From positions 15,031,601-15,095,600 of the forward strand of contig CM049319.1 of assembly GCA_026874595.1 (NCBI GenBank): a DNA stretch of 64,000 bases, written 5' to 3'. Positions 1,767-59,705 of the stretch are shown piece after piece. The notes below the pieces were generated by a model. It was given only the letters and a program-made list of their open reading frames with translations, had not been told where the DNA came from and did not search any database. The position numbers and the translations under genes were made by a program. Position 1 is the first letter of the stretch, and every line of letters starts with the position of its first letter. This DNA comes from Sipunculus nudus (lineage: Eukaryota > Annelida > Sipuncula > Golfingiida > Sipunculidae).

Positions 1767-1930
1767 GGTCGGCCCCCTTTCTGTGCTCGGAACATATCCC
1801 ATACGCCCCCCTACCTTACCTGTACTATGGTGTTATTTAAGTTCGAACAATACAGAAATGCAGTTCACAAGGTCAGCTGCAAGTACACGATAGACACTGA
1901 CTTGTTCAGTCTTTTGGGCTGACACCCCCA
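1767..1930 (+). repeat. Module A copy 1
   Basis: A long left-cluster form. It starts at GGTCGGCCCCCTTTCTGTGC, passes a TGTACTATGGTG block, and ends in AGTTCACAAGGTCAGCTGC and AAGTACACGATAGACACTGA. Here the two half-sites are separated by 2 bp (AGTTCA-CA-AGGTCA) instead of the usual 3. It is closest to copies at 6.03, 12.86 and 17.49 kb. Confidence 0.7.
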
Positions 1931-2262
1931 CATAACTTAAAAATGGACTATTCCTGATTTATAAGTCAATGATTCCTTAGAAGTATCAAATTTGGTATTT
2001 GTTTAAGGCTAAAATAGGGCCTTTTTCATAAATCAGTGTTAGAGGATGATTTTTATTTTTTAATTATTTGATTGTAAATATTCAAGGGTGATTTGGGGTC
2101 AACATGAATATAAGAAAATGTATTTTTCATGCCAAACAGGTAAAAAAAACCTTATAACAAATGAAATTATACCGATTTTTTTTAATTTTATTTTCTTGAA
2201 AGAAATATCCGAGTGACTGGATTTTTATTGTTAAAATTTATTAGAAATAACAGATGACAGGG

Positions 2263-2297
2263 GCCATGTCACTTGGCCACAAGATTCAGAAGAACTA
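2263..2297 (+). repeat. Module F copy 1
   Basis: A short conserved string, GCCATGTCACTTGGCCACAA followed by GATTCAGAAGAAC. It recurs at 6,446-6,480 on the same strand and at 35,611-35,644 on the opposite strand, where the flanks are unrelated. Confidence 0.55.
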
Positions 2298-2407
2298 CTG
2301 GGGCACAGTCGACATAATCTTGATAAATCATTAGTATGGAGAATGTGTAGACATGTGAGAGCCAATAACGTCATGTGTATCGATCAATGTTGGTCATTCC
2401 TGATGAT

Positions 2408-2475
2408 GGGACGTCACCACACACCGTCAGAGGTCAGCAGCCGTCGCTTTCCGACGAACCGCACCGCACTGACCG
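2408..2475 (+). repeat. Module B copy 1
   Basis: GACGTCACCAC, then CCGTCAGAGGTCAGCAGCC, then CGTCGCTTTCCGACGAACCG with CACTGACC downstream. It carries the AGGTCA half-site and most of the CTCF-like core, though the first positions differ from copy 7. The 7.74-kb copy is its direct partner. Confidence 0.65.
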
Positions 2476-3010
2476 AGTTACAATCGTACAATCCTTAAAT
2501 AATCACTGCAGGTTATCCCTAAATATTCGGTTATGGGGTAAAATTGATAAACAATAATAGTTGTATGGGATCCTCTCTCTTTCTCTCCGTGAATATAAAT
2601 TTCCGTATATATGTAATTAATTTTAACTTAATTATTTTATTCTTTCCTAAGTAACCATTGATCCTCTCTCCGTGAATATAAAGTCCCATATATAAATGTA
2701 ATTAAATCTGAGTTGATAATTTTATTCTTTCCTAAGAAACCATATATGGAATATGAAATTGTCGAAAAGAATAATAAAGATATCATCAATATATAACATC
2801 GTATTTTAGTTGCATCTCAATAGAGGGGGTGGAGTGTTTTTCCTGTGTGTCAGTTATGATGTACAAGAATGATTCATTCAACAAAGATATTTTACTCTAT
2901 ATCAATACATTATATATTTAAAATCAATCCAAGAAAAGGAAGATCCATTACTGGCTCCACATTTAGAAGAGACGCACAGTGTATGTCAGGATCTGGGGAG
3001 TGACATGGCC

Positions 3011-3115
3011 AGTGTCTTTCGTGGACTCACCGCTCACCAACTTCTTGGGTTTAATTCAGTTTAAATGAAGGAGCTCTGTTGCCACTGTCGTACTAGTGAC
3101 GTACTCGAGTGTACT
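3011..3115 (-). repeat. Module A copy 2, diverged
   Basis: On the plus strand this reads GTCTTTCGTGGACTCACC, then a degenerate core, then GTACTAGTGACGTACT. The two blocks keep the usual order but the half-site pair is damaged. Its partner in the neighbouring unit is the better preserved copy at 8,225-8,320. Confidence 0.5.
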
Positions 3116-3330
3116 GGTGTTGGACCAAGAACATAATGGGTAGTGACTTACACTCGTGTGAGGGTTGTAGCGGGGGTTAAATCATTACGAGATCAATGCT
3201 GGTTGTTTGTTCTCTGCCCGCTGGAGCGCTTCCCTTGTCAGTTAGCATGTGGTGACGCTAGTGACCTCTAGTGAATCAATTTGGCCACCGGTGTGTCGAC
3301 AATTAGATGGATAACGCTTCAGAAACCCTC

Positions 3331-3397
3331 CCGGGGGGTGGGGGGGGGGGGGGGGTTATCAGAAATCGATTCGGATGACCCCCCCCCCCCCCCCCCC
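3331..3397. repeat. Oligo-G run followed by oligo-C run
   Basis: A G-rich run at about 3,331-3,355 is followed 23 bp later by a C run at 3,379-3,397. The two could pair as a hairpin stem, or form G-quadruplex or i-motif structure. Run lengths may be imprecise from assembly. Confidence 0.7.
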
Positions 3398-3957
3398 TCA
3401 AGTTTTTTTTTTTATATTTTGCTAGTTGTAACACTGTTATAATACAAATTATACCTGAATATGCAGGAACCGCGGGTTAAGTGATGTAGTGTTGCCAAGT
3501 ATGAGGCAAAATTTAACCAGTTTAATTGAAGCACCTAAAAAATACATAAGAAATTTCTTTAATAAATCAAATAACATCGAGAGTTTGTTATAACGTTATG
3601 TTTCATATGCAAAACAAAAGGCTTTTTTCAATATTTCCTGGTATACTTCATTAATTGTTCATTATTTGAATTATTATATTAATTGGAGGATTGTCTCCAA
3701 TTTTAACAAAATAATGACAGGCTTCAAAATAATTTTATACTTTTAATCAGAAAATGCCTTATATCTAGCTGCAAGGTTAATTTCCGTAAACATTTAAAAT
3801 TAGTATAAAAATCCGGTGAATTATAAAAAAAGTTAATTTTGTTTTTGTTTATATTTTTGAGTTATGCGCCACGCAAAGACGACAGCGATACCTAGAAAAT
3901 TAATTTCCATAATCTTTCGCCTGTCTACATCCTAAAACCCCTTATTGGAACATTGAA

Positions 3958-4016
3958 TCGTCTGATGCTGACCGACGGGCTACAGACTGCATGAGAGTCA
4001 TTGAGTGCAGGGCTGG
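3958..4016 (+). repeat. Module C copy 1, truncated
   Basis: Starts with CGTCTGATGCTGACCGACGG, continues with ACAGACTGCATGAGAGTCAT and TGAGTGCAGGGCTGG, then breaks off into AT-rich DNA. The palindromic half of the module is missing. Its partner is the complete copy at 8,919-9,030. Confidence 0.6.
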
Positions 4017-4904
4017 ATATTATAATATAATGTATATTATCATTTAATTATATATATCATTATATATATAATGATACAATAAGTCGATACCTGACAGATA
4101 TCGCTTTACGTATTTCACAATACGTATATTGCACCTGAATAAGCTGACCGACACCCACACCTGTTGTATATAGAAATGTAAATAAGTTTAATCTCATATA
4201 ATATATTTCTAAACAATAAATAAACTCGATTAAAAAAGATTATAGGTATATTAAAATGCCATTAAACTTTTTCCTTACCAGTGAAAATACATCTCTGATG
4301 TCTTACAGCGTGGTGCTTAGAAACATTTTAAATGTCTGATGTAATTTGTCATTGAATGATCAAATATCGTCAACGTATCGATACAGGGATACCTTACGAT
4401 ACCAGTACGATATTCGACTTTGTATCGCAATGTATCGGTGAACCAGTTAACCCGTTCAGCCCTTGTGTGGCAACAAATAATACAGATGCGGATCCTGTAC
4501 GATTATTCTGCCTTGGCGGAGGTATGCGCTCCAATGAGTATGATCCAATATATTCCTATTTCATATTGCTTTATTATAATAATTTTTATTCTTAGGGATA
4601 TTTTTCTCAGTTTTAATCTCAACCTTATCTTTATGAAATTCAGCTAAAAAGAAGAGTAAGCATGTATGTTGATATAAATTACCAACTTTATTCTGTTTTT
4701 ATTTTGTTACCCCATTTTGCTATGACTGTATATTGAAAATGTTACGTTGCTGTGTAAAATGAGATTTGCTGGATTTCATAGCTTACTACAATAAGGCTAT
4801 CGGGTACACTTAAGCTTACGCCAATTAGTGCCCATATCATTTGTGTAACATTTTCTGGTATCTGGAATAAGGTCCGACAGTCGTGACATGTGGCGTGGTC
4901 AATT

Positions 4905-4975
4905 TCTTTCCTGCACTAAGAGCTGACCATTATGAACCGGACAGTACTTCCAAGTGATGACGTAAGTGTATGAGT
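4905..4975 (-). repeat. Module A copy 3, short form
   Basis: TTTCTTTCCTGCACTAAG leads into CTGACCATTATGAACCGG. On the minus strand this is GGTTCA-TAA-TGGTCA, a DR3-spaced pair. A TGATGACGTAAGTG block lies downstream. It aligns with 10,855-10,950. Confidence 0.6.
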
Positions 4976-5099
4976 AATGGTCCGAGAACAGATAGGACAG
5001 TCACCTTGGGATATTGTGGTTAATGGTTACAAGGAATACGGTCAGAGGTCACTGAGGCCCGTTTGCTGTTTGTATCTTGTATATGCGTGTGGGGGTGGG

Positions 5100-6025: not shown

Positions 6026-6185
6026 AGGTCGGTCCCCTTTCTGTGCTCGGAACATCACTCATACGCCCCCGTACCTCAGCAGTACTACGGTGTTGAATAA
6101 GTTCAAATGATACAGACGTGTAGTTCACAGTGGTCAGCTGCAAGTACACGATAGACACTGACTTGATCAGTCTTTTGAGCTGCCA
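6026..6185 (+). repeat. Module A copy 4
   Basis: A well-preserved long form: GGTCGGTCCCCTTTCTGTGC, then CAGCAGTACTACGGTG, then TAGTTCACAGTGGTCAGCTG, then CAAGTACACGATAGACACTG. The half-sites are AGTTCA-CAG-TGGTCA (DR3). Confidence 0.75.
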
Positions 6186-7805: not shown

Positions 7806-8224
7806 TTTCAATTGCATGGTGCTTCAATTAACTACAGCGGGTTATTCCGCGATATTCGGTTAAAGGACAAAATTGATAAACCAAGAATAGTTGTTGTTTA
7901 TCCTCTCTCTCCGTGAATATACATTCAAGTATATATGTAATAAATTCTAGGTCGAATATTAACTTTCCTTAGTAACTATATATGGAATAAAAAATAAAAG
8001 AAAAAATAATAAAGGTGACATCATCAGTTGCATCTTAATAGAGGAAGTGGAGTGCTTTTCCTGTGTGTCAGTTAAAGCGTACAAGAATGATTCATGCAAC
8101 AAAAATATGTACGAGTCTATATCAATATATTATGTATTAAATTTAAAAAAAGGACTATCCAATTTTTGTTCCAAATTTAGAAGATTTGTAGAGTGTATGT
8201 CAAGTTCTGAGAGCTGACTAATAT

Positions 8225-8320
8225 TTCGTTGTCTTTCGTGGACTCACCAGTGACCATTATGAACTTCTTGGGTTTACATGTATGACCTCTGTTGCCACTG
8301 TAGTACTGGTGACGTACTTG
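8225..8320 (-). repeat. Module A copy 5
   Basis: GTCTTTCGTGGACTCACC, then AGTGACCATTATGAACTTC, then GTAGTACTGGTGACGTACTT. On the minus strand the pair reads AGTTCA-TAA-TGGTCA. Confidence 0.7.
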
Positions 8321-8621
8321 TGTGTACTTGTGGTGGGTCAAGAACATATTGGGCAGTGACCTTACACTGGTGTGTGGGTTGTAGCGGTGGTTAGTCATTA
8401 CGGGATCAATGCTGGTTGTTTGTTCTGTGTCCACTGGAGCGCTTCCCTGGTCAGTTTGCACGGGTGACGACAGTGACCTCTAGTGGCCGAAACTAAAACC
8501 ATTATGCTACCGGTGTCAGATAAATATCGCTTCAGATAACCGGGGGAGGGGGACAGGGTATCTAACACATGTTGCTCAAGCCCAGCCGAGTTTTTTTTTT
8601 ATTTTTTGCTTGTTTTAACAC

Positions 8622-8641: not shown

Positions 8642-8918
8642 TTAGTCCAAAATTATACCTAAGTATGCAGAAACCACGTTAAATGATGTGGGGCTGCCAA
8701 AAATAAGCCACGCTATAAATTTACTGGTGTGATTGAAACATATAAAAATACTAAAGAAAATCCTTTAATAAATTAAATGCATCGAGTGTTTGCGAGTGTT
8801 TCGTGTGCAAAACGTTCCACTGTACTTTGCTATTTTTCATTAACTGTTCTAGACTGTGATTTCCCAGTCTTATGTTTTTATGGGAGGATTGTCTCCAACC
8901 CAACCCTGACGAGATTAT

Positions 8919-9030
8919 GGACTCGTCTGATGTTAATCAACGGGGTCAGTACAGACTGCATGGGAGTCATCAAGTGCAGTGCTGGAAATCCCCTTTCCAA
9001 GGTCAACGACCTCAAAGAACGTAGACGGCA
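8919..9030 (+). repeat. Module C copy 2, best preserved
   Basis: GGACTCGTCTGATGTTAATC, then GACTGCATGGGAGTCATCAA, then GTGCAGTGCTGGAAATCCCC, then AAGGTCAACGACCTC and an AGAACGTAGACGG tail. The AGGTCA-A-CGACCT segment is an inverted pair of receptor-type half-sites with a 1-bp spacer. An open frame crosses it, but the frame is not kept well enough across copies to call a protein. Confidence 0.7.
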
Positions 9031-9049
9031 GACCAGATGGACGGTGTAG

Positions 9050-10030
9050 TCACGTGATCGATAGCATCCCATCATTCTGTTCGGTCAACTTGTACCCATT
9101 GTACCGCCTCTTTCTTTGCTGAGATATACTCCCAATAATACAGATAACAATCATATTTACAACCTAATGTGTTTAAAGCAAACACCTTTTTTTATGATAA
9201 TGAAAACAGTTAATGCAATTTAATTAGAATATTAATCTTTTTAGAACATTTATACATTACGATGCTAAACAATCGATTAATACCTATAGTTTTATAAACA
9301 TAGGCAACTATCTACGTAACTAATTAACTAAAACTTCATTGATGTTTTGAGATAATATGTTCTGGAGATTTTTCGAAAACTTGAAAAAAAATCTTTTTTA
9401 GACAAAGATTTTGTTTCATACATATATATATATTTATTTATATATATAATATGATTTTAACTGTGGTGTTTACATGTGCCGTCAGCGTAAATATGTAAAT
9501 GATCGAAAATCGCCCCAGGAGCAATTTTCTTGGACGCATATTTGGGGTCTGCGTGAACTCAGGGAATCCCCGGTAAAATGACATCATTCAAGAAACATTT
9601 TTTTAGTAAGACCCCCTAAATTCACTGTGTATAGCTATATAATTCTGCCAGTTCGTGCATATACTCGCAACAAAGCTTGTCGTCCTCAGTAATAACAAGA
9701 GCACTTTTTTTTATTTTAGTCTGTAATGTTGTTTTCGTTTTCATTGCTTTCTAGTTAGTATACACCAATCCTTTATATACCGTGACACTGAAGGGGTGAT
9801 AAGAATAACCAAACTTCAAGGATACTAATGTTGACTCTGGGCGGAAGAACGTCCTCTGCCCGGGAAAGGATCCAGTTTATACAGTCTCAGCAAGGAGATA
9901 ATATATAGGATTTTATAAGGCTCTTATGGTCTCCGAAAACTAACCAAATCGTTATGACGTCACGCCACAGGGCGGATTCGCGCTCTATATCAGTTAGTAC
10001 CGGGCTTATCAGCGAATTCGCCCTTGTAAA
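9050..10030. other. AT-rich spacer, nothing recognised
   Basis: No coding frame or known repeat ends. A short ATATATA tract lies near 9.42 kb. Confidence 0.4.
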
Positions 10031-10520: not shown

Positions 10521-10854
10521 TTAAAGTATTGTTAACAAATCGATTTCATAAAACATTAAAAATGCCACAATTTTAATCTTTGTAAGGTACAGCTATATAC
10601 GAGGAGTATATATATGTATTTTCATACGACTATTAGCATTTTGAGATGACTGCTTTGTATTCAGGAAATTTTTTTTTATTTTCAATTTGACAATGCTGTT
10701 AAATATTAAATACTTTGGTTATGACGCCAATAAACGTGTGGTGTATATTTATACTATATTATAATGTCACTAAGTGCGCATGTCCGCCGGAGGTTGTGCT
10801 CCAATTCCTGGTATATCTTGGCAAATCCAACAGCCTTGACATGTGGCATCGTCA

Positions 10855-10950
10855 GGTTCATCCTTGAACTGAATACTGACCATTATGAACCAGATATTGC
10901 TGCTATGGAGATACAATTGTATCTCAATGGTGCTTCCAACTGATGACGTA
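10855..10950 (-). repeat. Module A copy 6
   Basis: ATACTGACCATTATGAACCAG gives GGTTCA-TAA-TGGTCA on the minus strand. A CTGATGACGTACTT block follows. Between them sits a self-complementary insertion, AGATACAATTGTATCT, that is absent from copy 3. Confidence 0.65.
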
Positions 10951-11036
10951 CTTAAGCAGTCACCTTGGGTTACAGTGGTTACAAGGAAAGGAATACGGTC
11001 AGAAGGCGTTGAAGGCCGGTTTGCGTCTTATAATGC

Positions 11037-12659: not shown

Positions 12660-13060
12660 GAATAGTATATTCACAAGTAAATCACGTTCATGGGCATGAT
12701 GCATGAGCGTTCATGTGACGTGTGTTTTTTCTACAGTTTATATTCCATATATATTACCGTAAACAATACAAAAGGCACGGGCACAGCACACAAAGTGGTT
12801 CTGGAAAATACTTAATTATCTCTGTTATATTCGCGGTAATAATGATAGTCTTATATATAGAGGTCGGCCCCCTTTCTGTGCTCGGAACATCACTCATACG
12901 CCCCCGTATACCTTAGCAGTACTACGGTGTTAAATAAGTTCAAATGATACAGACGTGCATTTTACAATGGTCAGCTGTAAACTTATACGCTGATTTGATC
13001 GGTCTTCTGGGCTGACCCCCAATGGACTAAAATAGACTCTTTTGGACTGTTAGTGTACGA
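12660..13060. repeat. Segmental duplication, left cluster unit 3 (partial)
   Basis: Repeats the start of units 1 and 2: the AGTAAATCACG leader, CAGTTTATATT, AATACAAAAGGCAC, then module A. Similarity stops near 13,060, about 200 bp before the foldback-like element at 13,260. Confidence 0.65.
12859..13020 (+). repeat. Module A copy 7
   Basis: GGTCGGCCCCCTTTCTGTGC and AGCAGTACTACGGTGTTAA are intact. The 3' core is weakened to CATTTTACAATGGTCAGCTG, so only the TGGTCA half-site is kept. Confidence 0.65.
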
Positions 13061-16423: not shown

Positions 16424-16784
16424 TTGCACCTTTTTAAAGATCAAATTAAATCTTATTGATATCAAAGTTTTGTTCGATGTTATTTATATTTAGACACTAC
16501 ATATATTTTAGATTTTTTTCATTTTAGAGATTATGTTATGATGAACTAATCTTTTCCAATAATGAAGTGGAAAACATCAGAAATACTTTCTGAGTCATTC
16601 CTTGTCGCGTTAATATAAAAGGCTTAACAATAACAAATCGTTCGACAAGTATACCGTAATAAAGTCATTCAAAGGACAGTTCCACTTTGCTGAGGGAAAA
16701 GTTGCAAAAACAATGGCAGAAGGGAGTCCGGGCTAAAAAGGACGAAACGGACGTGTAGTCACGTGACTTCCCACCAGCTGTATA

Positions 16785-16893
16785 TCATCTGCTTCATGGA
16801 GGTCATTGGCCTTGGGAAGAGGGATTTCTGGCCCTGCACTTGATGACTCCAGTGTGGCCCGTACGTCATCTTTTACCATCAGACGAGTCCATA
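16785..16893 (-). repeat. Module C copy 3
   Basis: Plus-strand reading: ATGGAGGTCATTGGCCTTGG, then GGGATTTCTGGCCCTGCACT, then CAGACGAGTCCATAATCC. On the minus strand the palindrome is AGGCCA-A-TGACCT, with a perfect TGACCT right half. Confidence 0.65.
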
Positions 16894-17280
16894 ATCCTAC
16901 AAAGGGAGAAAAAAGGAAGAGAAAATGCTCCCACTGAATGAAGGATAACCATGTATTTGTGCATGGTCCCAGGGTCCGTAGAACATTTTTGTTTCTGGTA
17001 TCTTCTGAAGTATTTTTTTTTTCTTTCGTTTCGTTGGGAGAATGCCAGTTTATTACAAAAACCATTTCATAACAAAAAGTCCTTGGACAATGATTAAACA
17101 TGTAACGATGATATTGATATTTTGTTATTTAGTTGCTTTGAAATGCATTATTTATTTTTCAACAAGCTGCAGGTTAACATGTCTAAATTAACTAAAGAAT
17201 TCATTTCTAGACTTCTAATCCTGATATATTTCTGATATTTTGAATATTGTTTGTGCCGTAATATTACCTGAACAACCAAG

Positions 17281-17487: not shown

Positions 17488-17645
17488 TCGGCCCCCTTTT
17501 TGTGCTCGGAGCATCACTCATACGCCCCCGTACCTCACCAGTACTACGGTGTTAAATAAGTTCAAACGATACAGACGTGTAGTTCACAGTGGTCAGCTAC
17601 AAGTACACGATAGACACTGTCCTGATCAGTGGTCTGAGCTGACAC
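17488..17645 (+). repeat. Module A copy 8
   Basis: Full left-cluster form: GGTCGGCCCCCTTTTTGTGC, CACCAGTACTACGGTG, TAGTTCACAGTGGTCAGCTA, CAAGTACACGATAGACACTG. The pair is AGTTCA-CAG-TGGTCA. It has the same layout as copy 4 at 6.0 kb. Confidence 0.75.
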
Positions 17646-30015: not shown

Positions 30016-30020
30016 GAGTG

Positions 30021-36691: not shown

Positions 36692-36700
36692 TGTCACTCG

Positions 36701-38057: not shown

Positions 38058-38117
38058 AGATGGGGTCGTTGGCCTTGAAAAGTGGATTCCCAACACTGCA
38101 CTCGACGACGCCCGGTG
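38058..38117 (-). repeat. Module C copy 5, partial
   Basis: Minus strand: CGTCGAGTGCAGTGTTGGGA, then ATCCACTTTTCAAGGCCAAC, then GACCCCATC. Palindrome reduced to AGGCCA-A-CGACCC. Confidence 0.6.
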
Positions 38118-38119
38118 TA

Positions 38120-38262
38120 GCAGGCCAGAATAACCCCCTTTGATTGTATACCCGGGTACAATCTGGCCTAGCCCAAACTATACCCCTTGGGTCTAAAATG
38201 GGCTAGGACAGATTATACCCCAGGGTGTATTCTGGCTAGTCTATTTATACCCCCTTAGGCTA
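38120..38262. repeat. TACCCC-rich imperfect tandem and inverted repeats
   Basis: A near-palindrome centred on CCCGGG (38,142-38,163), then repeated pieces such as CTGGCCTAGCCC, TATACCCCTTGGG, ATGGGCTAGGACAGATTATA and ACCCCAGGGTGTATTCTGG in both orientations. It can fold extensively. Confidence 0.6.
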
Positions 38263-38705: not shown

Positions 38706-38828
38706 AGACATTCTCTTACAAACACACACACAGTTGCCGAGGTTTTATATGGCCTTTGAGTTGACTGCCTCCTCTGTACCGGCAGCCTGTACTGTATACC
38801 TAATTTCTCACATGCATCTCCGTACGTC

Positions 38829-38920
38829 GTCAGTACTGTAACCCCACATGAGGTCATACAGACAATCCGTGAAGTTCACTGTGGTCAGCCGTAAGTATGT
38901 GAGAGAGACTGACCGGTCAA
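38829..38920 (+). repeat. Module A copy 12
   Basis: GTCAGTACTGTAACC, then GAAGTTCACTGTGGTCAGCC, then GTAAGTATGTGAGAGAGACT and GACCGGTCAA. Pair AGTTCA-CTG-TGGTCA. This is the first copy of the right-cluster type, with GAGAGAGACTGACCGGTC after the core. Confidence 0.75.
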
Positions 38921-39059
38921 CTGTCCTTGGTAAAGATCTAGATCATTGCGTGCGAGTAAACATGCACTTTACGTCAACAGCAGCTAATCAATGCGACATG
39001 TCTCCTGGGTATTCCTGGCTAACAGCAACATGTATCACTGTATTCACTTAACAGGAGAC

Positions 39060-41172: not shown

Positions 41173-41387
41173 TAATTTTGTTAAAGCCTTTGACACCATA
41201 GGCATATATACTTCCATTTCCCTGTGATACTTGAAAGTGGTTGTATATATGTGTGAATGCGTTGTGTATATACGTTTATGCGTAGGAGTGTGTAATGGTG
41301 AGTCTTTGTGCTTGTGGTCAGAAACGTTGCAGTCCTTTAAGTGCCTTGTCTTTGCTGTAGCCGTTACTTTCACACATTCCCGTGACT

Positions 41388-41480
41388 GACCAGTACCATA
41401 AAGCTATACCAGGACCTGTCATCAGATCATATCAGTTCATATTGGTCATCCTTAAGTACGCGAAAGAGACTGACCGGTTA
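41388..41480 (+). repeat. Module A copy 13
   Basis: GACTGACCAGTACCATAAAG, then TATCAGTTCATATTGGTCAT, then CTTAAGTACGCGAAAGAGAC and TGACCGGTTA. Pair AGTTCA-TAT-TGGTCA. Confidence 0.75.
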
Positions 41481-41489
41481 CTCATTAAG

Positions 41490-42180
41490 TAGTTGCATGT
41501 ACAACAAGCTCTGCAGAGAGAGCTGTTTCAGCGAGTGCATGTCCAGGGATGAATCTGGTTACTCGACAGCACCCGAGTGCTTATTAGGCCGCGGCTGTTT
41601 CAAACATGCATTGGGCTTCAAATTGAAAAGGAACAAATCGAAGAAGCCCAGATGGATTTTTTAAAAGTCATTACAACATAATCGAGGTTTATAATTTACA
41701 ATAACAACTTGCATGCCGGAACGGATCAAGAATTTTTAGAAGGGATGGGTTTATTGTTCATACCAAGGGACCGATGCAAATAAAAAAAACTAAAGGTGGT
41801 TTAGCCTTTAAATAAAATTAAACACGTAAAGCCCAACAAAAAAATACAATTTCTTGCATCTACGAGGAGGGTAGACACCCTAACCCCTATCCCCCGGACC
41901 CATATCCATATAAAACATAAGATTTATTTACTGTGATTCTACACTTCATTGTTAAATATTAGGTATTATTTCAATCACCAAAAATCTCAAACTTAGTATT
42001 ATATATCGGTTTTATATATAAAAGACGTTTGTCATATGACAGCATATGGCGCAATGAATAGTGCCAAAACGATCGGCTGTCTATATTTTTATGTTTATTT
42101 TTGAAACCCCCATGCAATGACCAGACTTTGGGTTAAATACTTCGCGGCCAATGACTTCTCTGACTTTCAGTGGTTCCCTG
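41490..42180. other. Spacer, nothing recognised
   Basis: No identifiable content. Confidence 0.4.
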
Positions 42181-42187
42181 AGTTCAC

Positions 42188-42276
42188 ATAGGTCGCTGCC
42201 CTGAAAAAGGGGGGTTCCAGCACTGCACCCGATCACACCAAGCATGTCTACCATAACTGAGCAACGGAAGAGTCCA
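42188..42276 (-). repeat. Module C copy 6
   Basis: On the minus strand: GGACTCTTCCGTTGCTCAGT, ATGCTTGGTGTGATCGGGTG, CAGTGCTGGAACCCCCC, then AGGGCA-G-CGACCT. The start echoes the GACTCGTCCGTTGCCCAG of copy 7 at 53.8 kb. Confidence 0.65.
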
Positions 42277-42861
42277 TATTTCCTGACAAGGGTTTCAGAT
42301 TTCAAGACACAAGTCTCATATGCACACAATACGTTAAAGATTATAAAGTATTTAAGCCACTAGGTTAATTAAAACTTACTGTGTATTATGTACATCTGGA
42401 AGAGCATGTACATTTTTTTTTCTGGTTTTAAGTGCTGTGCAATGCCATGATTTATTCTGCAAAAATGTGACGTGATTCAATCCCTGAACTTGCTGTGGGT
42501 ACTGATAATCGATAGTTTTATCATTTACACAAAACTGTTATGCGACCTATAAATTCTTCTTATTATTTTTTTTTTTTACAAATTTCAAAGATTACGTATA
42601 GTGGACATAACGTTTGTGACCGTAACAAGTTATCGGGTAATATTAAGTCACATAATCAACTGAGTCACTTGTCCAATGGGTCACTTATTTACAGGAACTA
42701 TCCAGCTGTAAAAGCGCTATAAAACATGTCTTGTTGTAATTGATAATACGGTCAGAAGAAATATTAGGGACACTGACGTAGTCCCCGTTACCGTTACAGC
42801 CCTTGAAATGCTTGTCGTTGAGGTGAACGTGCTCTGAACACTGGTATATACACACCTTGTG

Positions 42862-42965
42862 CGTCACCAGTACCGATACGTCAATAAAGTTAAACGGTCA
42901 CGTCCATACAGTTCAAACTGGTCAGCCGTAAGTATACGAGAGAGACTGACCGGTCACTCATCAGT
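42862..42965 (+). repeat. Module A copy 14, near consensus
   Basis: CGTCACCAGTACCGATACGT, CAATAAAGTTAAACGGTCAC, ATACAGTTCAAACTGGTCAG, CCGTAAGTATACGAGAGAGA, CTGACCGGTCACTCATCAG. Pair AGTTCA-AAC-TGGTCA. Copy 15 lies 380 bp away on the other strand. Confidence 0.8.
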
Positions 42966-43047: not shown

Positions 43048-43339
43048 TCATTTCTCTCTCCATTTCTTACCTTTCGTTCCGTCAAACAGAAATATAAATT
43101 CCGCCCGGATCGGTATCCTGCATGTAGACGGATAAAAGGAAATGGGTAAAGCTTCGGTTTAGTTTGGGAACAGAACAACATTATATCAAATCACTTATCG
43201 ATGCTTCATCAAGAGATAGGATTGCTAAGGAATAAGTCACTAAAAGAGGGTCTATTAGTTTCTAAAAAGAAATCCTTTACAGACATAGAAAATGTATTTT
43301 TTTAATTATGAGGTGACGCAAGGGTGTTAGCTCTGACGA

Positions 43340-43505
43340 TTGACCTGGCCGGTCTTTTTCGTTTACTTAAGGTTGACTGTTATGAACTGACCGGGTTTTT
43401 ATGTATGAACTTGTACTACCATGTAGCACTGGTCACGTACTGGATTGTAAGTGTGATGTACCGAGGATGCAGTGACCCCACGATCACGGGAGAATAGATA
43501 CCCCC
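43340..43505 (-). repeat. Module A copy 15, long right-cluster form
   Basis: CTGGCCGGTCTTTTTCGTTT, then AGGTTGACTGTTATGAACTG, then TGTAGCACTGGTCACGTACT, then GATGTACCGAGGATGCAGTG, ACCCCACGATCACGGGAGAA. It is the reverse complement of copies 16, 19 and 23, including the TGCATCCTCGGTACAT part. The second half-site is CAGTCA rather than TGGTCA. Confidence 0.75.
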
Positions 43506-45429: not shown

Positions 45430-45595
45430 TGTTATCGTGAGGTCACTGCTTCCTCGGTACATGGCCAGTACATATAGCCGGTACTATATTGTAATACAAG
45501 TTCATACGTTAAACCCTGTCAGTTCATAACAGTCAACCGTAAGTACACGAAAAGACAGGCAAGGTCATTCGTCGAAGCTGACACCCCTGCTAGAC
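45430..45595 (+). repeat. Module A copy 16
   Basis: GGTCACTGCTTCCTCGGTAC, CGGTACTATATTGTAATAC, GTCAGTTCATAACAGTCAAC, CGTAAGTACACGAAAAGACA, ending in AGCTGACACCCCTGC. Pair AGTTCA-TAA-CAGTCA, as in copies 15, 19 and 23. Confidence 0.75.
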
Positions 45596-45830: not shown

Positions 45831-46611
45831 ACTATATATAAACATGTGTGTGTGATAAAAATAGTAAATGCATGATTTAACAGATGAAAAAATACAAATG
45901 TATTCTCCAACTATTGTCGGATGACAGATATACCCACTGAAAAGAATAAGAGGAACGTGATTACAAAAAAAAGACAAGCTTGCAATATTCCTGCATGTCA
46001 TTGCATACAAATGACATTCATATTACAGCTTTAAGTATAACTACCGTAAAACCACGTCGGAAGACCCCCGGTCACGACCATATATTTAATGGTCCCGGAA
46101 GTCCAGTTTACGACTTGTCGTGAAAACTGTCACAAGAATTCCGATAATAATTCTTCTTAGTTTAACCGAAGAGTTGATCGTGTTATAGCACGTATGTGCT
46201 AACTAAACTTTTTTAAAAGCTATCTTACTCTATTACTATATTAATCTATTACTGAGACATAATGTAACCTGATATCATCCATTTACTGAATATGACAATG
46301 GAACTGTATAGGGTCCCTACCTACTAGTTTGATGTCAAAGAGTAGTCTTCCAGTTTTTTCGACCTCTTGATTTCACTTGAGGATATAAAATCATTATAAG
46401 ACGTTTTGAAACAGAGAATGGAATGAAAATAACTGTATAATAATATCAAACATATAATAATATATCATTGTACAAACTCAAGTAAACAGAAAATGTGTTT
46501 ATATGATTTCGTCATCATAATATTGGTAATATTGCAGGGGGTTGTGTGCGAGCAAAGGAATAAATTTAGGAGATTGCGGATATTCCCTGGGGCAGCTAGA
46601 TATTAAGCACT

Positions 46612-46735
46612 GGTGAGTGACCGGTCAGTCTCTCTCGCGTACTTACGGCTGACCAGTTTGAACTGTTTGGACGTGATTGTTTGAACTTTATTGACGGAGC
46701 GGTACTGGTGACGTACTGGATGAGTACCAGTGGTA
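46612..46735 (-). repeat. Module A copy 17, near consensus
   Basis: ACTGGTGAGTGACCGGTCAG, TCTCTCTCGCGTACTTACGG, CTGACCAGTTTGAACTGTTT, TTTGAACTTTATTGACGGAG, CGGTACTGGTGACGTACTGG. Reverse complement of copy 14 over about 110 bp. Confidence 0.8.
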
Positions 46736-47963: not shown

Positions 47964-48499
47964 ACCCTTATCTCTTAATTATATCAATGGATCCATAATG
48001 TATAATTTTTAGAGTATGACCGATAAACTTAATATTTCTACATATTTTTATAGTCTTATTCCATTATTTCACTCAGTATCAGAAATATATTAGGTCTGGT
48101 GAAAGATTCCACGAAAAGGTCAATGTCTGCATGTGCTCTGTAGCGTCCTCTCGAATTCGGAAACCCCGTGCGTGTATGGTCTTTCGGGACTTATTCAAAA
48201 CGTCTATGTATTTACTGTATAGGTTATGTCAGTCAAGGAGGAATTTAAAGTTAAGTTTACATATCATTAACAAAAAAAATAAATTTAAGAAATATATCAC
48301 CACTTCATTGATTTGTAATATCTGGTATTTTAATTTTATTTAGGCACCTCCGCGCATGGCAGGCCTGCACACATCCAGTGGATAAGCTCAATGTGTGTGC
48401 TATCCTAGAACAGTCCCTTTATATGCACACCTTAAAGTATCTGATCTTTTTGTCCTTTGTTTATTTCAACAATAGTTACAGACTTACAGTACATCTCAG

Positions 48500-48560
48500 T
48501 GCGCCAGTACCATAAAGATTAAATGAGTTCAAGCTGGTCAGACTTGGGTGCGGCCAGAGG
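48500..48560 (+). repeat. Module A copy 18, partial
   Basis: CAGTGCGCCAGTACCATAAA, then GAGTTCAAGCTGGTCAGACT. The pair has 3-bp spacing (AGTTCA-AGC-TGGTCA). Its downstream half is replaced by GGTGCGGCCAGAGGAAACTG. Confidence 0.65.
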
Positions 48561-48797
48561 AAACTGCGGGTCCTGGGTGACGTCATAATCCGACCCCCTT
48601 TCCGCCAATGGACCCGTCCGTTAAGGTTGAGGCTGAAGGCCTGTTGTTTGCTCTGAAAAGTCGGAGATGGTCATCTGTGGATAACAAATAATAATCACTG
48701 CTTCAGATGACTTAACCTTATTACATCTTTGTAGGGATAACACATTTTTACTCCTGCGCTCGATATGTCTTAGCAGCATGATTTCGACACACTGCAC

Positions 48798-49334: not shown

Positions 49335-49490
49335 CCGTGATCGTGGGGTCACTGCATCCTCGGTACATCACAAATACACACCGGTATGTGACCAGTGCGA
49401 CATGGTAGTACAAGTTCACCCTGTCAGTTCATAACAGTCAGCCGTAAGTACACAAAAAGTCCGGCTGGGCCATTCATTAAATCTGACACC
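49335..49490 (+). repeat. Module A copy 19
   Basis: CGTGGGGTCACTGCATCCTC, CCAGTGCGACATGGTAGTAC, GTCAGTTCATAACAGTCAGC, CGTAAGTACACAAAAAGTCC. Pair AGTTCA-TAA-CAGTCA. Same long form as 58.1 kb. Confidence 0.75.
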
Positions 49491-52325: not shown

Positions 52326-52904
52326 TTTTTTTTTTCTTCAGATTTATTTTCATTATAATGTTGGCCCTTGGGAATGGCGAGTAAAGGCGATTTTTTTTTT
52401 GAATGGCATTGATCTTTTTTTTAACATTTTTTTGTATCAGTGTTTATATCATTGTAAAAGCTAAAATTTGTCAAACAATAATCTGTCATCTGTCTAGTTT
52501 CCACCCACAGTATATCCGATGCTATAATTACCGCCAACCGGGTTAACCAATACGCGGATATAGATTTATCTGTTTGGCACAATAATGAATGGAGTATTAT
52601 TGATCAAGTATAACTGTCCGAGCAAAGGCATGCAGTACGTTTAACCGGGAGGGGGGGGGTCGTAACGGTTCCTTACGAGTATACAAGACAAGGATAGACA
52701 GAAAGAGGGACAGGAAAAACTGAAGCAGACAAAGAGAGAAAGCATGACGCGAAACAGAGACAGGGAGACAGAAAATATGAGAGAAAATGAGACAGAATAT
52801 CAGAGAGAAAGAGAGAAAAGGAGAAGCACGTTACAAAAAAGTTGACACAAATTTTGCTGTTTGTACAAAGCTTGTATCTCATCTTGTAACGAGGTACAGT
52901 TGAC

Positions 52905-53020
52905 ACTGGTGAGTGACCGGTCAGTCTCTCTCGTGTCCTAACAGCTAACCAGATTGAACTGTACGGACTGATCGTTTTAACTTTATTGACGGAGCGGTAC
53001 TGGTGACGCACGGGTGTATA
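52905..53020 (-). repeat. Module A copy 20
   Basis: ACTGGTGAGTGACCGGTCAG, TCTCTCTCGTGTCCTAACAG, CTAACCAGATTGAACTGTAC, TTTATTGACGGAGCGGTACT, GGTGACGCACG. Pair AGTTCA-ATC-TGGTTA on the minus strand. Confidence 0.75.
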
Positions 53021-53069
53021 CCAGTGGTCAAAGCAAATTCTCTAATCCAACCAGGTATTAAGTAATGAT

Positions 53070-53155
53070 GAGTGGCCGGTCAGTCTCTCTCGCGTACTTA
53101 CGCCTTACCCGTTTGAACTGTACGGACGGAGCGGTACTGGTGACGTACATGCAGG
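53070..53155 (-). repeat. Module A copy 21, internally deleted
   Basis: GGCCGGTCAGTCTCTCTCGC, CTTACCCGTTTGAACTGTAC, GGACGGAGCGGTACTGGTGA. The TGATCGTTTGAACTTTATTG segment present in its neighbours is missing, so the two blocks lie closer together. It sits about 50 bp from copy 20 in the same orientation. Confidence 0.7.
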
Positions 53156-53189
53156 GTGTGTACCAGTGGCCTTATCCTCTGAATGTTTT

Positions 53190-53835
53190 ATTCATTTCAA
53201 CAAGCCTTGTTTTGCAATGTTACATTGTAACAAATGTACAGGTTCTAATAATAAGTGACCTTGAGCCATGACACTCAGCTGCATGATAAGCCCAACATGT
53301 AACACTACTTTAGATCTTAATATCTGAACAACTGCTGGATACAATCTGATAAAATTTTACCTGCATATTGAACATTATATTTAACATTACCGCTGCGAAT
53401 TTCCTGCAAAATATAACAATATAAAAAAAAACTTACAACCGTTGAAATTTGGATCCTGCCAAATGCCAAGCCTTTGTCTTAAGACAAAAGCCATTAAGTG
53501 TCTCCAGATGCCTAAATTTTCTACAACTGTAAGTTGTTATAAAAAATACTGAATTACAAGTGTAACAATCAGTCTTATGTAACGGATGAAAATTTTCAAT
53601 TATAAATAGGCATTACAATTTGAGGGATTGAAACGCTTCAAATTTTCTCGAGATAAATTATATATCACTGTACAATTACACATACCTCGATGTTGGTGTA
53701 CATACATCTACCAACTACATATTATACGCAGGAAAATTTAATCAGTGGTTAGTGGCAGAAATATGTTTGACGGCCTGGAATATATTACTTGTGTGTGAGA
53801 CCTATAGCTTGAAATCTGAACTCTCTGTCATTGAT
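53190..53835. repeat. Trailing part of A (-) unit, then spacer
   Basis: CTCTGAATGTTTTATTCATT, AAGCCTTGTTTTGCAATG and GTGACCTTGAGCCATGACAC to about 53,480 align with 59,720-59,930 and 60,410-60,560. The rest is unrecognised AT-rich DNA. Confidence 0.55.
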
Positions 53836-53837
53836 TT

Positions 53838-53940
53838 AGACTCGTCCGTTGCCCAGTAACAGTAGACGGGCTGGGTGTCATCAGGTACAGTGCTGGAAAT
53901 CCCCTTTCTAAGGGCAGCGACCTCTACGGACGAAGTAGAT
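53838..53940 (+). repeat. Module C copy 7
   Basis: GACTCGTCCGTTGCCCAGTA, GGCTGGGTGTCATCAGGTAC, AGTGCTGGAAATCCCCTTTC, TAAGGGCAGCGACCTCTACG, GACGAAGTAGATGG. Palindrome AGGGCA-G-CGACCT. Nearly as complete as copy 2. Confidence 0.7.
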
Positions 53941-54544
53941 GGGCCTACTGCAAGACGGAGGGGCCACCGAGAGGTGCTGCCGTTTGCGTTGGAGGTTTTA
54001 TTTTATTTTTTTTATTCATTGCGTCATATTATGAAATACTCCTCTCATTTCTGAATTGAATTCTCCTTATTTGGTTAAATACACTTTAGGTTTATATTAT
54101 TATTAAGACCGTTTTGAATTTATAAATAATTTCGAAAAAAAGATGACTAAGAGGAGTCACTTATTCCATATAAAAAGACATGTGCGCTGAGCGACTAATA
54201 ACGCCAAAATTGTTCCACAACTCAACGAAGGAGTAACTTTAAGTCTTAAGAATCAGGAAGTAACACAAATTAATTCTCCCAGTAAAGAGATTTAAATCCC
54301 CTACACCCACTTGTATCCGCCTCGATATGCATGCTCAAAATAATATACTCCATGCAGGCCCCGTGGACCTCCCCTTTGGATCCGTCACTAATATAAACAT
54401 CTATTTCTCGGAATCACGGAAATGTGTATTTTAGATAAAAAAAAACTTCTGCCTCATCTTTTTTACGTATTTTTCTGTCAGATCCACTTGGTTTATTATA
54501 CCTCAAAACTGATTTAAGAGAGTGTCTTATTATATCTAAACACT

Positions 54545-55190: not shown

Positions 55191-55978
55191 AGTTTCAAAT
55201 CGTCTCCTGCCAAGTTACCAGATCAGCTCCTGGATGTGATTTTCTTGAAAACTCTATACAGACAGTAGCAATTGACTTAAGATAGGTCCATCTATTTCGT
55301 GTACGTATGACTGACCAATATATGCACTTTTTATTAACAGGAACCTATATGGAGTGTAACTTTTTTTACAACCATATATATATTTATATGTATATATGGT
55401 ATATCCACAGCGATATAATATTTCAGTATAAGCCAATACAGCCATGTGCTCTCAAATGTGTATTATTTGTTATAGATATTTCTTCCCTATAAGACCATAT
55501 ACATCCTAGACTGGTGTACACACACACACATATATATAATTAACAATACAAGAATGTATATGGTGATATATCTTAAAATTTGCACATATTATACTCGTTT
55601 TAACTATCATAGTTTAGTTCAAATTAAACCTTACGAAACTACGACTTAGCCGCACGGTCGCCGTACAAGTTGAAGCACGGTAAATCTATCCGTATACCCG
55701 TTTCCCTGCCCGTACCCAGACAGACGGAAACACAGCTTAATTGCTTAAATACTAGTAAATTTAAGTATTAGCGGCTACTGGGACCCTTTTTGTGAGAATA
55801 ACATTCAAATATAAAAATAATGTTTTTGTGCTTTTGCGCGATATAGAAGGAACCAAGGTGCCAGCCAGCATGCAGTCAGCCTGCTCGGAGGACAGCCAGA
55901 CCAGAACGAGGCGACCATGCAGGAAGCCGCAAAACTGTTAAGCCAACGTTGCTTGGCAATGCCAAAGAATGTATTCTT

Positions 55979-56075: not shown

Positions 56076-56664
56076 GACACCGACTGTTTAGAATTTTATT
56101 CGAAAGAAATATTATGGTCGGAATTAATGGCCACCACACCAGTCATTAAAATGACTTTTCATTTCACTACCATAGACCTCATGGGATGTATGATTTAAAT
56201 TACTTTATCTTTATACATTGTCCGGAGGCAGATACGTTTGGTTTTAGGGAGTTTAAATTCCGCTAAATGAAAGAAATTACATTTTCAGCAGGGTTTACCC
56301 CAATCTTTAATACTAAATCCCTTATTAGAAATCCCTTGCGTGTATGGTCTTTCAGGACTAATTTAAAAATGTCTTTGTATTTACTGTAAAGTATATGTCA
56401 GTCAAGGAGGTTTTTAATTAAAGTTCACATATTATTAAAAAAAGTAAATGTAAGAAATATTACACGACTTAATTGATAGGTTGAAATTTAATTTTATGTA
56501 TGCAACTCCGCGCATGCAGGCCTTCGCAAATCCAGTGGATAAGCTCAAAAATGGGTGTGCTATCTCTGAACAATCTCTTTATGCACACATTAAGGTATCT
56601 GATCTTTTTGTCCTTTGATTATTCCAACAATAGTTACAGACTTACAGTACATCTCAGTGCGTCA

Positions 56665-56710
56665 GTACCATAGAGATTAAATGAGTTCAAACTGGTCAGA
56701 CTTGGGTGCG
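56665..56710 (+). repeat. Module A copy 22, partial
   Basis: CGTCAGTACCATAGAGATTA, then GAGTTCAAACTGGTCAGACT. Same truncated form as copy 18, with 3-bp spacing (AGTTCA-AAC-TGGTCA). Confidence 0.65.
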
Positions 56711-57056
56711 GCCAGAGGAAACTGCGGGTCCTCGGTGACGTCACTGTACCAATCCCCTTTCCACCAATGGATCCGTCCGTTCAGGTCGAGGCATTATGGC
56801 ATATCGTCTGCTCTGAAACGTCGGAGATAGTCATCTGGAAACAAATCATAATCACTGCTTCAGATGACTTAACCGTAACATCTTTGTACGGATTACAATT
56901 TTTACTGCTGCGCTCGATATGTCTTAGCAGCATGATTCCGATACACTGCACAGAATCTAGCGACAGCCTGTCACCCCAAACGTCGATTTTGGGTGAACTG
57001 AAGTCCAGTCCGTCAGTTTATTTCCGAAGGCCTGAGTGTCAAGTTGTCATGGCTAC

Positions 57057-57120: not shown

Positions 57121-58094
57121 TAGAGACCTTAGCCCCTCAGTGCACCGGGACTTCTAAATACACCACATAGTGGTGTAGTATAAATGCAGTAAATTAAAGA
57201 GGGTAACGTAGTCCATTCAGATACGTTGGATAAGAATTGTTTCAACACAAATTACATAGAATTGGGTGTATTTGTGGTGAGGAATTCACACAACATAATA
57301 ATTTGTAAATTAAGTATATATATGCATGTGCAATATAAAAAGAACAGGATTTTCCTTTAAATGTTACAAATTTTGATTTTGAAGTTTGCCATTTTAGTGA
57401 AACAGCCCGGGCCAACCCGTCCAGAGTATGAGATTTTGAGTTTTTGTGTACAATCAAATAGATATAAAAATGTATGTATCGGGTGTCGTATGTCCATCTA
57501 GCCTATCTCATGACTTTTTAAATAATTTTTTAACATGCAAACAAAATATCTGATGGATTAAAATTTCTCCCAGTTAATGTTTGTAATGCCATTAACATGC
57601 CATCAGGGCGAATTGTTCCAGTATGTTTTTGGTATACACTTGGAAAATATATTTTGCATTCACGTGTGCAGGTGTACTATACCGGTCTTATTATGACAAG
57701 CAAAGATGAATTAAAGCAGGTTTCTTTTGCTCTGTACTTGAAACTGAAGGTAAAAATACTTGCAAGATCTAACATCTAATGTTAATTATGCCCGAACTGG
57801 GCATAATGGGTCATTTTTTAAATATAGCATAGCCAAAGACATTTAAAAATAAGTTAAAAAAGGCAAACTAGCACATTTATAAACATTTCTAATGCATTCG
57901 TTCTTTTTTTTATAAAACCAGTCTGTTCAAATAATCAAATGATCTTAATTTGACACCCTTTTATATTATACATGTGTACGTAAGACGGTTTTATAAACTG
58001 TTCCTTGTCTCAGTGAATGGTGAAACTGAAACTGCGCATGTCCGATTTTCAGAACATTCCATTTTGTCGGGTGGTGTCTATTCTCCCGTGATCG

Positions 58095-58250
58095 TGGGGT
58101 CACTGCATCCTCGGTATACATCACACATTCACGCCAGTACGTGACCAGTACTATATGGTAGTACAAGTTCATACGTAAAACCCTGTAAGTTCATAACAGT
58201 CAACCATAAGTACACAAAAAGTCCGGCTCGGCCATTCATCAAATCTGACA
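58095..58250 (+). repeat. Module A copy 23
   Basis: GGGGTCACTGCATCCTCGGT, CCAGTACTATATGGTAGTAC, GTAAGTTCATAACAGTCAAC, CATAAGTACACAAAAAGTCC. Pair AGTTCA-TAA-CAGTCA. Confidence 0.75.
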
Positions 58251-58502
58251 AATCTGACTCTACCGATTAATAGTAGTACCATTTCTGTGTATGTAAAGAA
58301 ATATTTAAATAACTGATAAATCCTCTTTAAGTGACGTATTCCGTATCTGCTGATAAATCCGCGTTCAGTAATTTGCTTTTACGTTCTGTTCCACACCTAA
58401 AGTAGCAGCTTTACAAATTTCCTCCAACTTCCTCTGTCTAAATACAGGATACTAACTGGTTACGTGCCTGGATTTACATTTCTGTACAATTGGAACGAAA
58501 GT

Positions 58503-58710
58503 TTGGAGAGCGAGAGAGAGAGAGAGGGGGGGGGGGGGGACAGAGACAGAGAGAAAAATACAGACAGACAAACAGACTAAGAGAGAGGGACACAGACAAG
58601 GAGAGAGATATATACGGCACCTTTTTTGTTAAGCCCTGAAATAGTAGATAGTCACAGACAGAAGGACGGAAAGAAAGACACAAAGAACAAGGAAGGGAAA
58701 ATCCCGGAAT
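58503..58710. repeat. (GA)n/oligo-G/(GACA)n with conserved flank
   Basis: Counterpart of 49,758-50,045. Ends ACAAGGAAGGGAAAATCCCG. Confidence 0.75.
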
Positions 58711-58725
58711 ATATTTTTTGCATGA

Positions 58726-58820
58726 GTGGTCACCCACTACATTCACTGCATGTGCGGAATCAGATCCATTTGATGATACAAAGTAACCTTAATATTTCGC
58801 CACCAAAGTCCAGTCACGCC
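58726..58820 (+). repeat. Module G copy 2
   Basis: GTGGTCACCCACTACATTCA, TGCGGAATCAGATCCATTTG, ATGATACAAAGTAACCTTAA, CACCAAAGTCCAGTCACGCC. Confidence 0.6.
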
Positions 58821-59434
58821 ATTTTTTCTGATTTCTTTTCTTTATAATATTGGTCCTTGGAATGGCGGTCCAGTCGTACAAGCTAATTATTGGGGTGGAT
58901 TTGTGTTTCAAATCGAATTTATCCTTTTGTTTATTTTTTATATTATTGTTGATATCTTTGTAAAAACTAAACTTGAACAGTCAAACTATAAGCTGTCAGC
59001 TGTAAGGTATCCACCAACAATATCTCCTGCTGAAATCACCGCCAACCAACACGGAATATAGATGATTGGTACTAATGAAAGGAGTATGATTGATCAAGTA
59101 TAACTGTCCGGGCAAAGGCATGCAGTACGTTTAAAGGGGGATGTTTAACGGTTCCTTGCAGTACGTTTAAAGTGGGGATGTATATAACGGTTCCTTACAA
59201 GTACACAAGACAAGGATAGACAGAAAGAGGGACAGGAAAAACAGAAGCAGACAAAGAGAGAAAGCATGACGCGAAACAGAGACAGGGAGACAGAAAATAA
59301 GAGACAAAGGGAGACGGAGAAAACCAGAGAGAAAGAGAGAAAAGGAGAAGCACGTTACAAAAGTTCACACAAATTTTGCTGTTTGTACAAAGCTTTTATC
59401 TCATCAAGTAACTATAGGTATAGTTAACACTGGT

Positions 59435-59545
59435 GAGTGACTGGTCAGAGTCTCTCGTGTCCTAACAGTTAACCCGATTGAACTGTACGGACTGATCGTT
59501 TGAACTTTATTGACGGAGCGGTACTGGTGACGTACAGGGTGTGTA
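59435..59545 (-). repeat. Module A copy 24
   Basis: GGTGAGTGACTGGTCAGAGT, CTCTCGTGTCCTAACAGTTA, ACCCGATTGAACTGTACGGA, TTTATTGACGGAGCGGTACT, GGTGACGTACAGG. Counterpart of copy 20. Confidence 0.75.
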
Positions 59546-59599
59546 CCAGTGGTCAGAGCACGTTCTCCCATCCAACAAGATATTAAATAATGATGACTG

Positions 59600-59705
59600 A
59601 CCGGTCAGTCTCTCCTGCGTACTTACGACTTACCAGTTTTAACTGTACGGACGTGATCGTTTGAACTTTATTGACGGAGCAGTATACTGGTGACGTACAG
59701 GGTGT
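59600..59705 (-). repeat. Module A copy 25
   Basis: GACCGGTCAGTCTCTCCTGC, GACTTACCAGTTTTAACTGT, CGTGATCGTTTGAACTTTAT, GCAGTATACTGGTGACGTAC. Counterpart of copy 21, but without its internal deletion, so the deletion in copy 21 came after the duplication. Confidence 0.75.

Follow-up and report, generated by a model that had tools for sequence, protein, structure and literature searches.

The nameable locus-private non-coding repeat arrays are, to our knowledge, all mammalian (Firre, DXZ4). They organise chromatin, act as enhancers or retain RNA in the nucleus; the repeats of a Firre-type locus are read on one strand, and the units of DXZ4 are tandem and arranged head-to-tail. Local repeats are described in PMC4820808 as sequences that recur within one locus, separated by other sequence, and do not occur elsewhere. 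Firre possesses 13 of them, eight confined to that locus, with 40 occurrences of the repeat R0, which recruits CTCF, YY1, SP1 and RAD21, can act as an enhancer and binds CTCF without a canonical motif (PMC4820808). The CTCF sites of Dxz4 are of one polarity according to PMC6985041. No such array is reported from a mollusc in the titles and abstract openings that were surveyed. The present locus is a 64 kb stretch of the Sipunculus nudus genome (C14:15,031,601-15,095,600, henceforth the window; genome of 1.43 Gb in 153 contigs), in which a module of about 130 bp with the half-site pair RGTTCA-N3-TGGTCA is dispersed on both strands. About 60 copies of this one non-coding unit form a locus-private array. 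The explanation that we rank as most likely, with confidence reaching about the halfway mark, is an expanded array of a protein-bound cis-element.

About 25 copies had been counted in the initial annotation. A profile seeded with 15 motif-bearing window copies and then iterated (nhmmer) recovers the core of about 130 bp in 26 window copies, on both strands, from 1785 to 59709. With 100 kb added on either side (264 kb in all), the wider profile run detects 27 copies within the window and 57 altogether, a few of them weak, at C14:14,974,894-15,121,640 (147 kb). Of the 57, 29 are on the plus and 28 on the minus strand, and the median distance between copies is 2.0 kb. The best chance match in a reversed-sequence control scores 13.6 bits (E 0.0074), given which the weakest of the 57 copies (16.9 to about 22 bits) are less certain. 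With a sequence-only covariance model built from 41 copies and a limit of E 1, 55 matches are obtained, with scores down to 8.2 bits. The searched stretches 14,891,601-14,971,600 and 15,125,601-15,195,600 of C14 contain no copies. About 100 kb to the left of the array, at C14:14,872-14,876 kb, two further copies are found with a group 4 probe and three with the model. Apart from the whole-genome probes, these scans covered C14 14,870,601-15,195,600, minus 14,878,601-14,891,600.

Five subfamily DNA probes compared with the whole genome gave 12, 9, 12, 5 and 5 matches, and all 43, one of them at chance level (E 5.9), fall inside a single region of about 240 kb (C14:14.87-15.11 Mb). Between 5 and 11 candidates were scored per probe, so that privacy holds for recognisable copies and strongly diverged ones elsewhere could escape. 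The thousands of genome-wide copies by which the initial annotation would have recognised an ordinary inactive repeat were not seen with these probes. The bare 15-mer motif is hardly enriched genome-wide: it has 524 exact occurrences, about 0.02 per 64 kb, and its reversed sequence, used as control, has 489. Within reach of the probes the module would be a "local repeat" in the Firre sense: it recurs non-contiguously in one locus, recognisable copies are absent from the rest of the genome, and the single region and the kilobase flanks held in common speak against a transposable element, as judged independently of a repeat library.

These flanks had been described as unrelated at first. In fact 52 module pairs are colinear over at least 500 bp across the module (0.5-3.2 kb, 61-97% identical), the remaining pairs falling short of that. 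Because these pairs align over long flanks, the array must have grown through repeated local segmental duplication with inversion. Average-linkage clustering of 41 copies at 52% identity separates ten groups, and one order, group 5 (+) followed by group 4 (-) at a distance of 1.2-2.9 kb, recurs five times. Repeated insertion of a transposable element, whether a short interspersed nuclear element (SINE), a miniature inverted-repeat transposable element (MITE) or another kind, would also place dispersed copies on both strands about 2 kb apart. We regard it as the most improbable of the explanations considered: the recognisable copies occupy one region of a 1.43 Gb genome, many copies have kilobase flanks in common, and no tRNA was found in the window. 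A SINE or MITE is disfavoured by the probes and the shared flanks; neither the many genome-wide copies nor the unrelated flanks of a SINE were found, nor, in the window, a tRNA or Rfam match that could represent its Pol III head. Of the two possibilities offered initially, an element under constraint or a SINE-like family, it is the former that finds support.

The suggested comparison of core and flanks was carried out on 16 duplicate pairs in which no unit is reused. The core is more alike than the flanks in 13 of them (mean +6.9 points; Wilcoxon p=0.0010, sign test p=0.021) and contains fewer gaps in 14 (p=0.011); the units are of common ancestry, and the pairs are not fully independent. Among all 52 pairs, which overlap, the difference is positive in 44, or in 43 with other flank limits. 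The conserved core measures about 130 bp, and up to about 330 bp within one subfamily. Inside diverged units it is on the whole better preserved than the flanks, a pattern that points to a functional DNA element more than to the remains of a common repeat. An old, functionless segmental-duplication array, in which the core was preserved by gene conversion, by its higher G+C or merely apparently through discovery bias, is unlikely. Duplication accounts for the copies, module and flank hardly differ in pooled mismatch rate, and the seeds were picked by motif; however, the paired test within duplicates favours the core, the copies outside the window are equally conserved, and it is modules that give the top peaks of a self-comparison, with up to 33 matches as opposed to 14 for other repeats.

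Within the module, the half-site pair keeps its length and varies in its spacer, as first noticed. Allowing one mismatch, RGTTCA-N3-TGGTCA occurs 17 times in the window versus 0.72 +/- 0.87 in shuffles (largest 4); 13 of these matches are exact, and two (22504 and 32963) lie outside any module. Among the window copies 18 of 20 have the 15-bp length, as do 21 of 21 outside it, and the spacer takes the form of nine different triplets in 25 copies. Information content amounts to 1.57 bits in the first half-site, 0.62 in the spacer and 1.49 in the second half-site (all columns 0.92), and in the outside-window copies alone to 1.54, 0.97 and 1.47 bits (all columns 1.02). None of the latter copies served as one of the 15 seeds, yet the profile that detected them had been grown from those seeds; bias is thereby lowered, not abolished. 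A second half-site CAGTCA characterises four window copies (43338-, 45458+, 49366+ and 58119+), the number given in the initial annotation. Exact RGTTCAN3TGGTCA is present in only 18 of the 41 best copies. The motif GTACGTCACCAGTAC (up to two mismatches) is found 14 times in the window versus 0.06 expected, and its conservation equals that of the half-site block (1.36 versus 1.35 bits); together with AGTTCAtAaTGGTCA it forms the most conserved 15-base stretches over 41 copies. The outside-window copies show much the same pattern, with the half-site stretch 6th of 119 in rank. G+C content is 43-49% from -150 to +150 of the module versus 30-40% beyond (41 best copies).

Two hexamers 3 bp apart recall the direct repeats with spacing 3 (DR3) bound by nuclear receptors, and the initial annotation had named the vitamin-D-receptor (VDR) type. 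The spacing speaks for this type: relaxed half-site pairs in modules number 31 at spacing 3, compared with 0, 0, 1, 0 and 1 at spacings 0, 1, 2, 4 and 5. In addition, oyster possesses NR1J receptors, to which the vertebrate NR1I group (VDR, PXR, CAR) is homologous, according to PMC4070562. The name itself is weak. TGGTCA, the common second half-site of the modules, is off the DR3 consensus, as had been conceded, and strict RGKTCAN3RGKTCA occurs in only two modules of the 57-copy array and one of the three left-hand copies. With another module block as conserved, and with homologous copies in which one ancestral spacing explains all, a dedicated array of VDR-type DR3 response elements is very unlikely. 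Binding of the half-sites by some nuclear receptor is possible, judging from their sequence. GGTCA occurs 35 times in 12 subfamily representatives (9.2 +/- 2.7 in shuffles) and CAGTAC 17 times (2.9). Outside the core, where the subfamilies hardly align, GGTCA is still found 9 times versus 3.6, a count that 12 of 1000 shuffles attain; none of five further motifs is enriched there. Half-site pairs at spacings 0, 1 and 2 number 22, 17 and 28 in the 264 kb, all but one outside modules, and a tandem array with a 287 bp unit containing AGGTCA runs (GAGGTCAAAGGTCAAGGTCACAGG) is located at window 50974-51959.

The module is non-coding. Mismatches are evenly distributed over its codon phases (0.165/0.177/0.168), indels do not come in threes, and no open frame is present in more than 9 of 41 copies (some in 9 and 8, versus about 5 expected). 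In 173 aligned open frames, a ratio like that of non-synonymous to synonymous substitution has a median of 0.88 and a minimum of 0.28. Frames across modules (e.g. 52676-53041-) are alike as proteins, but their substitutions lack codon phase, and the module was rejected as a coding exon. The codon-wise substitution of a protein-coding gene cluster is thus not seen, and the array yielded no family of coding exons. The window contains no Rfam match at gathering score and no credible one below it. Its permissive Rfam list is mainly low-complexity; a sub-threshold snoZ178 match (26.7 bits, threshold 100) overlaps the end of the copy at 42831-42965 and the adjoining CT repeat.

The serious rival, which we hold to be possible though clearly less probable than a cis-element array, is a cluster of non-coding RNA genes, in which the module, read opposite to its first orientation, would be the promoter or first exon and a second block, B, 0.5-1.9 kb downstream, a further exon of paralogous copies, some of them dead. 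Twelve places carry block B, which is about 175 bp long; at two of them the match is short and weak. It is private to the array as well (probe window:8850-9060, six of six genome matches inside the array). At all 12 places it lies 526-1906 bp downstream of the nearest module on the opposite strand; eight block B seeds were taken from that position, so that the regularity is partly built in. This polarity is the best evidence for a transcribed unit, and because of it the RNA genes keep their standing. The raised G+C of the modules fits exons too, and RNAalifold returns z about -3.1 on both strands for a 38-copy alignment, with a hairpin of TGGTCAG/CTGACCA type. Taken together the fold evidence is divided and leans against an RNA gene: no pairs are predicted on the 41-copy alignment, and inspection by eye shows that group 7 and several copies of group 4 do not keep the hairpin intact. 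The fold of block B reaches only about -0.9 on both strands. Nor is a splice donor GTAAGT constant, many copies having GCAAGT, TTAAGT, CTAAGT or ATAAGT instead, and 12 block B places contrast with 57 modules.

A protein-bound cis-element array would work as follows. The core is a putative cis element that would be recognised as duplex DNA and carries several short predicted binding motifs (GTACGTCACCAGTAC, AGTTCA-N3-NGGTCA, TAAGTAC, ACTGACC) at nearly fixed spacing, and a factor of nuclear-receptor type is one candidate binder of the GGTCA half-sites. The strand balance and the 0 predicted pairs suit action at the DNA level. Many copies jointly may constitute one composite regulatory or chromatin-domain element, because the right end of the array coincides with the end of a CpG-retaining stretch. 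Over the final 20 kb of the array the observed-to-expected (o/e) CpG ratio lies at 0.75-1.09. The 12 kb that follow window coordinate 90,000 have 0.33-0.59, and farther right most values are 0.1-0.4. At that coordinate (C14:15,121,601) the ratio drops from about 0.9 to 0.38, and it remains low throughout the next 70 kb read; 10-kb bins right of the array range from 0.15 to 0.46. The last module copy (window coordinates 89,931-90,040) ends at this step, which was read at this locus alone. In oyster, methylated CpGs concentrate in young repeats and in gene bodies where expression is moderate (PMC4378273); on that pattern the CpG-poor side probably represents a domain of germline methylation, either a gene or repeats. 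A Pfam scan of open reading frames (ORFs) on this right-hand side names no gene: 136 of 188 G+C-rich ORFs give 15 families at E up to 0.1, the best at 0.004 and none credible. A bolder version of the same explanation, which we find doubtful, is an independently evolved invertebrate locus of Firre/DXZ4 type, with about 60 protein-bound modules on both strands that mark and hold a chromatin domain, end at the edge of a CpG-retaining (germline-unmethylated) domain and are bound via nuclear-receptor-like half-sites, not CTCF motifs.

Several observations weigh against a bound cis-element array. The core is not better preserved in three of the 16 pairs, and in pooled pairs of at least 72% identity the mismatch rates of module (0.144) and flank (0.137) are about equal, perhaps because the long flank alignments come from recent pairs. 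The 12 subfamily representatives are homologous, and their motif counts are not independent. The fold signal of the 38-copy alignment is a further such point, and the fixed order and polarity of block B suit a transcribed unit better than a free DNA element. As to the domain edge, the module copy at the CpG step is weak (25.1 bits), the left CpG edge of the array is soft, 10-kb bins inside the array span CpG o/e 0.51 to 0.91, and methylation of a gene or of repeats may be all that lies behind the loss of CpG on the right.

Table 1. Module copies (nhmmer profile; groups from the clustering of 41 copies) and block B places, in window coordinates
Feature	Position	Strand	Basis or distance
Module copy, weak, partial	185..261	-	nhmmer 22.1 bits
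Module copy, group 5	1785..1921	+	nhmmer, clustering
Module copy, group 4	2992..3129	-	nhmmer, clustering
Module copy, internally deleted	4879..4986	-	nhmmer
Module copy, group 5	6045..6182	+	nhmmer, clustering
Module copy, group 4	8215..8342	-	nhmmer, clustering
Module copy, diverged	10831..10956	-	nhmmer
Module copy, group 5	12880..13014	+	nhmmer, clustering
Module copy, group 5	17504..17641	+	nhmmer, clustering, genome probe
Module copy, own group	30006..30143	-	nhmmer, clustering
Module copy, diverged	34255..34357	+	nhmmer
Module copy, group 3	36566..36696	+	nhmmer, clustering
Module copy, own group	38807..38928	+	nhmmer, clustering
Module copy, own group	41361..41487	+	nhmmer, clustering
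Module copy, group 1	42831..42965	+	nhmmer, clustering
Module copy, group 7 (CAGTCA)	43329..43465	-	nhmmer, clustering
Module copy, group 7 (CAGTCA)	45454..45580	+	nhmmer, clustering
Module copy, group 1	46606..46734	-	nhmmer, clustering, genome probe
Module copy, diverged	48468..48568	+	nhmmer
Module copy, group 7 (CAGTCA)	49359..49484	+	nhmmer, clustering
Module copy, group 1	52904..53033	-	nhmmer, clustering
Module copy, group 1, internal deletion	53061..53161	-	nhmmer, clustering
Module copy, weak, partial	55283..55351	-	nhmmer
Module copy, diverged	56627..56727	+	nhmmer
Module copy, group 7 (CAGTCA)	58110..58246	+	nhmmer, clustering, genome probe
Module copy, group 1	59426..59558	-	nhmmer, clustering
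Module copy, group 1	59589..59709	-	nhmmer, clustering
Block B	3914..4020	+	792 bp from module 2998-
Block B	8878..9050	+	543 bp from module 8230-; probe window:8850-9060, 6/6 matches inside array
Block B	16758..16935	-	577 bp from module 17512+
Block B	31255..31398	+	1119 bp from module 30016-
Block B	38029..38193	-	615 bp from module 38808+
Block B	42152..42322	-	526 bp from module 42848+
Block B	53793..53966	+	625 bp from module 53070-

The widest in-window gap between modules (17.5-30.0 kb) holds a Ty3/gypsy-like retroelement inserted in the array (window 19455-26505), with frames at 20.0-21.6 kb recognised by eye and two end repeats of 253 bp (at 19,455 and at 26,253) that are 95% identical; inverted stretches related to it lie at about 61.0-61.5 kb. 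A large inverted pair (34695-35233 and 36701-37238) is 87-89% complementary with its inner arms about 1.5 kb apart, and two tandem arrays of 43 bp period (13297-13514 and 15034-15363), mutually inverted and up to 93% complementary, contain ATCTCGTGGCCACGCGATAA-like palindromes. From 2,043 ORFs the 145 longest usable ones were taken, and 34 of these were left out by hand, retroelement frames among them; in the remaining 111, Pfam recognises six families, only FLYWCH (6.4e-6) being credible. On another contig, four adjoining exons of a muscle myosin gene (C2:44,849,337-44,852,248) match about the same head segment (profile positions about 109-153), which suggests alternative exons. Of three muscle-myosin exons of this genome compared with PDB chains, one has the squid chain 3i5f as its best match and the scallop chain 2ec6 as the next, a second ranks scallop chains highest, about ten bits ahead of the leading vertebrate chain, and the last prefers a Myosin-6 chain, with 3i5f in third rank; taken alone, these matches would point to an animal, probably a mollusc.

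Compared with the known systems, the array resembles Firre (R0 and the repeating RNA domain, RRD) in that its module is repeated non-contiguously in one locus only. It differs in the equal use of both strands, in the lack of a known long non-coding RNA (lncRNA) gene and in its about 60 copies; repeats within one lncRNA on one strand, as in a Firre-type locus, were not found here (29 plus, 28 minus). From the DXZ4 macrosatellite of the mammalian X it differs by units that are diverged (61-97% in aligned pairs), interspersed and inverted. A CTCF-bound macrosatellite was rejected, the modules having no canonical CTCF site: the strict consensus CCASYAGRKGGC is found twice in the 264 kb and never in a module, and the short core AGRKGGC occurs 9 times in modules versus 3.4 in shuffles, seven of the nine being the same AGGGGGC string in group 5 copies. 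With nuclear-receptor DR3 elements the module shares a pair of hexamers separated by 3 bp, its first hexamer being AGTTCA or GGTTCA in most cases; the second hexamer of the module is mostly TGGTCA or CAGTCA, and the full pattern RGKTCA-N3-RGKTCA is thereby absent from all but the few strict copies given above. Protocadherin and olfactory-receptor clusters consist of tandem units of a few kb with one conserved non-coding promoter element each, and the array is like them in its few-kb units with one conserved non-coding element, unlike them in that no coding exon family accompanies it. The array offers some 40 good variants of a single element, comparable to a mutagenesis experiment made by nature, and a binding code could be read from them and tested directly. 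The array may be regarded as a variant of the local-repeat kind, for which a way of working like that of Firre or DXZ4 can be proposed by analogy; with about 60 copies and a measurably conserved core, it would show that such loci arise outside mammals.

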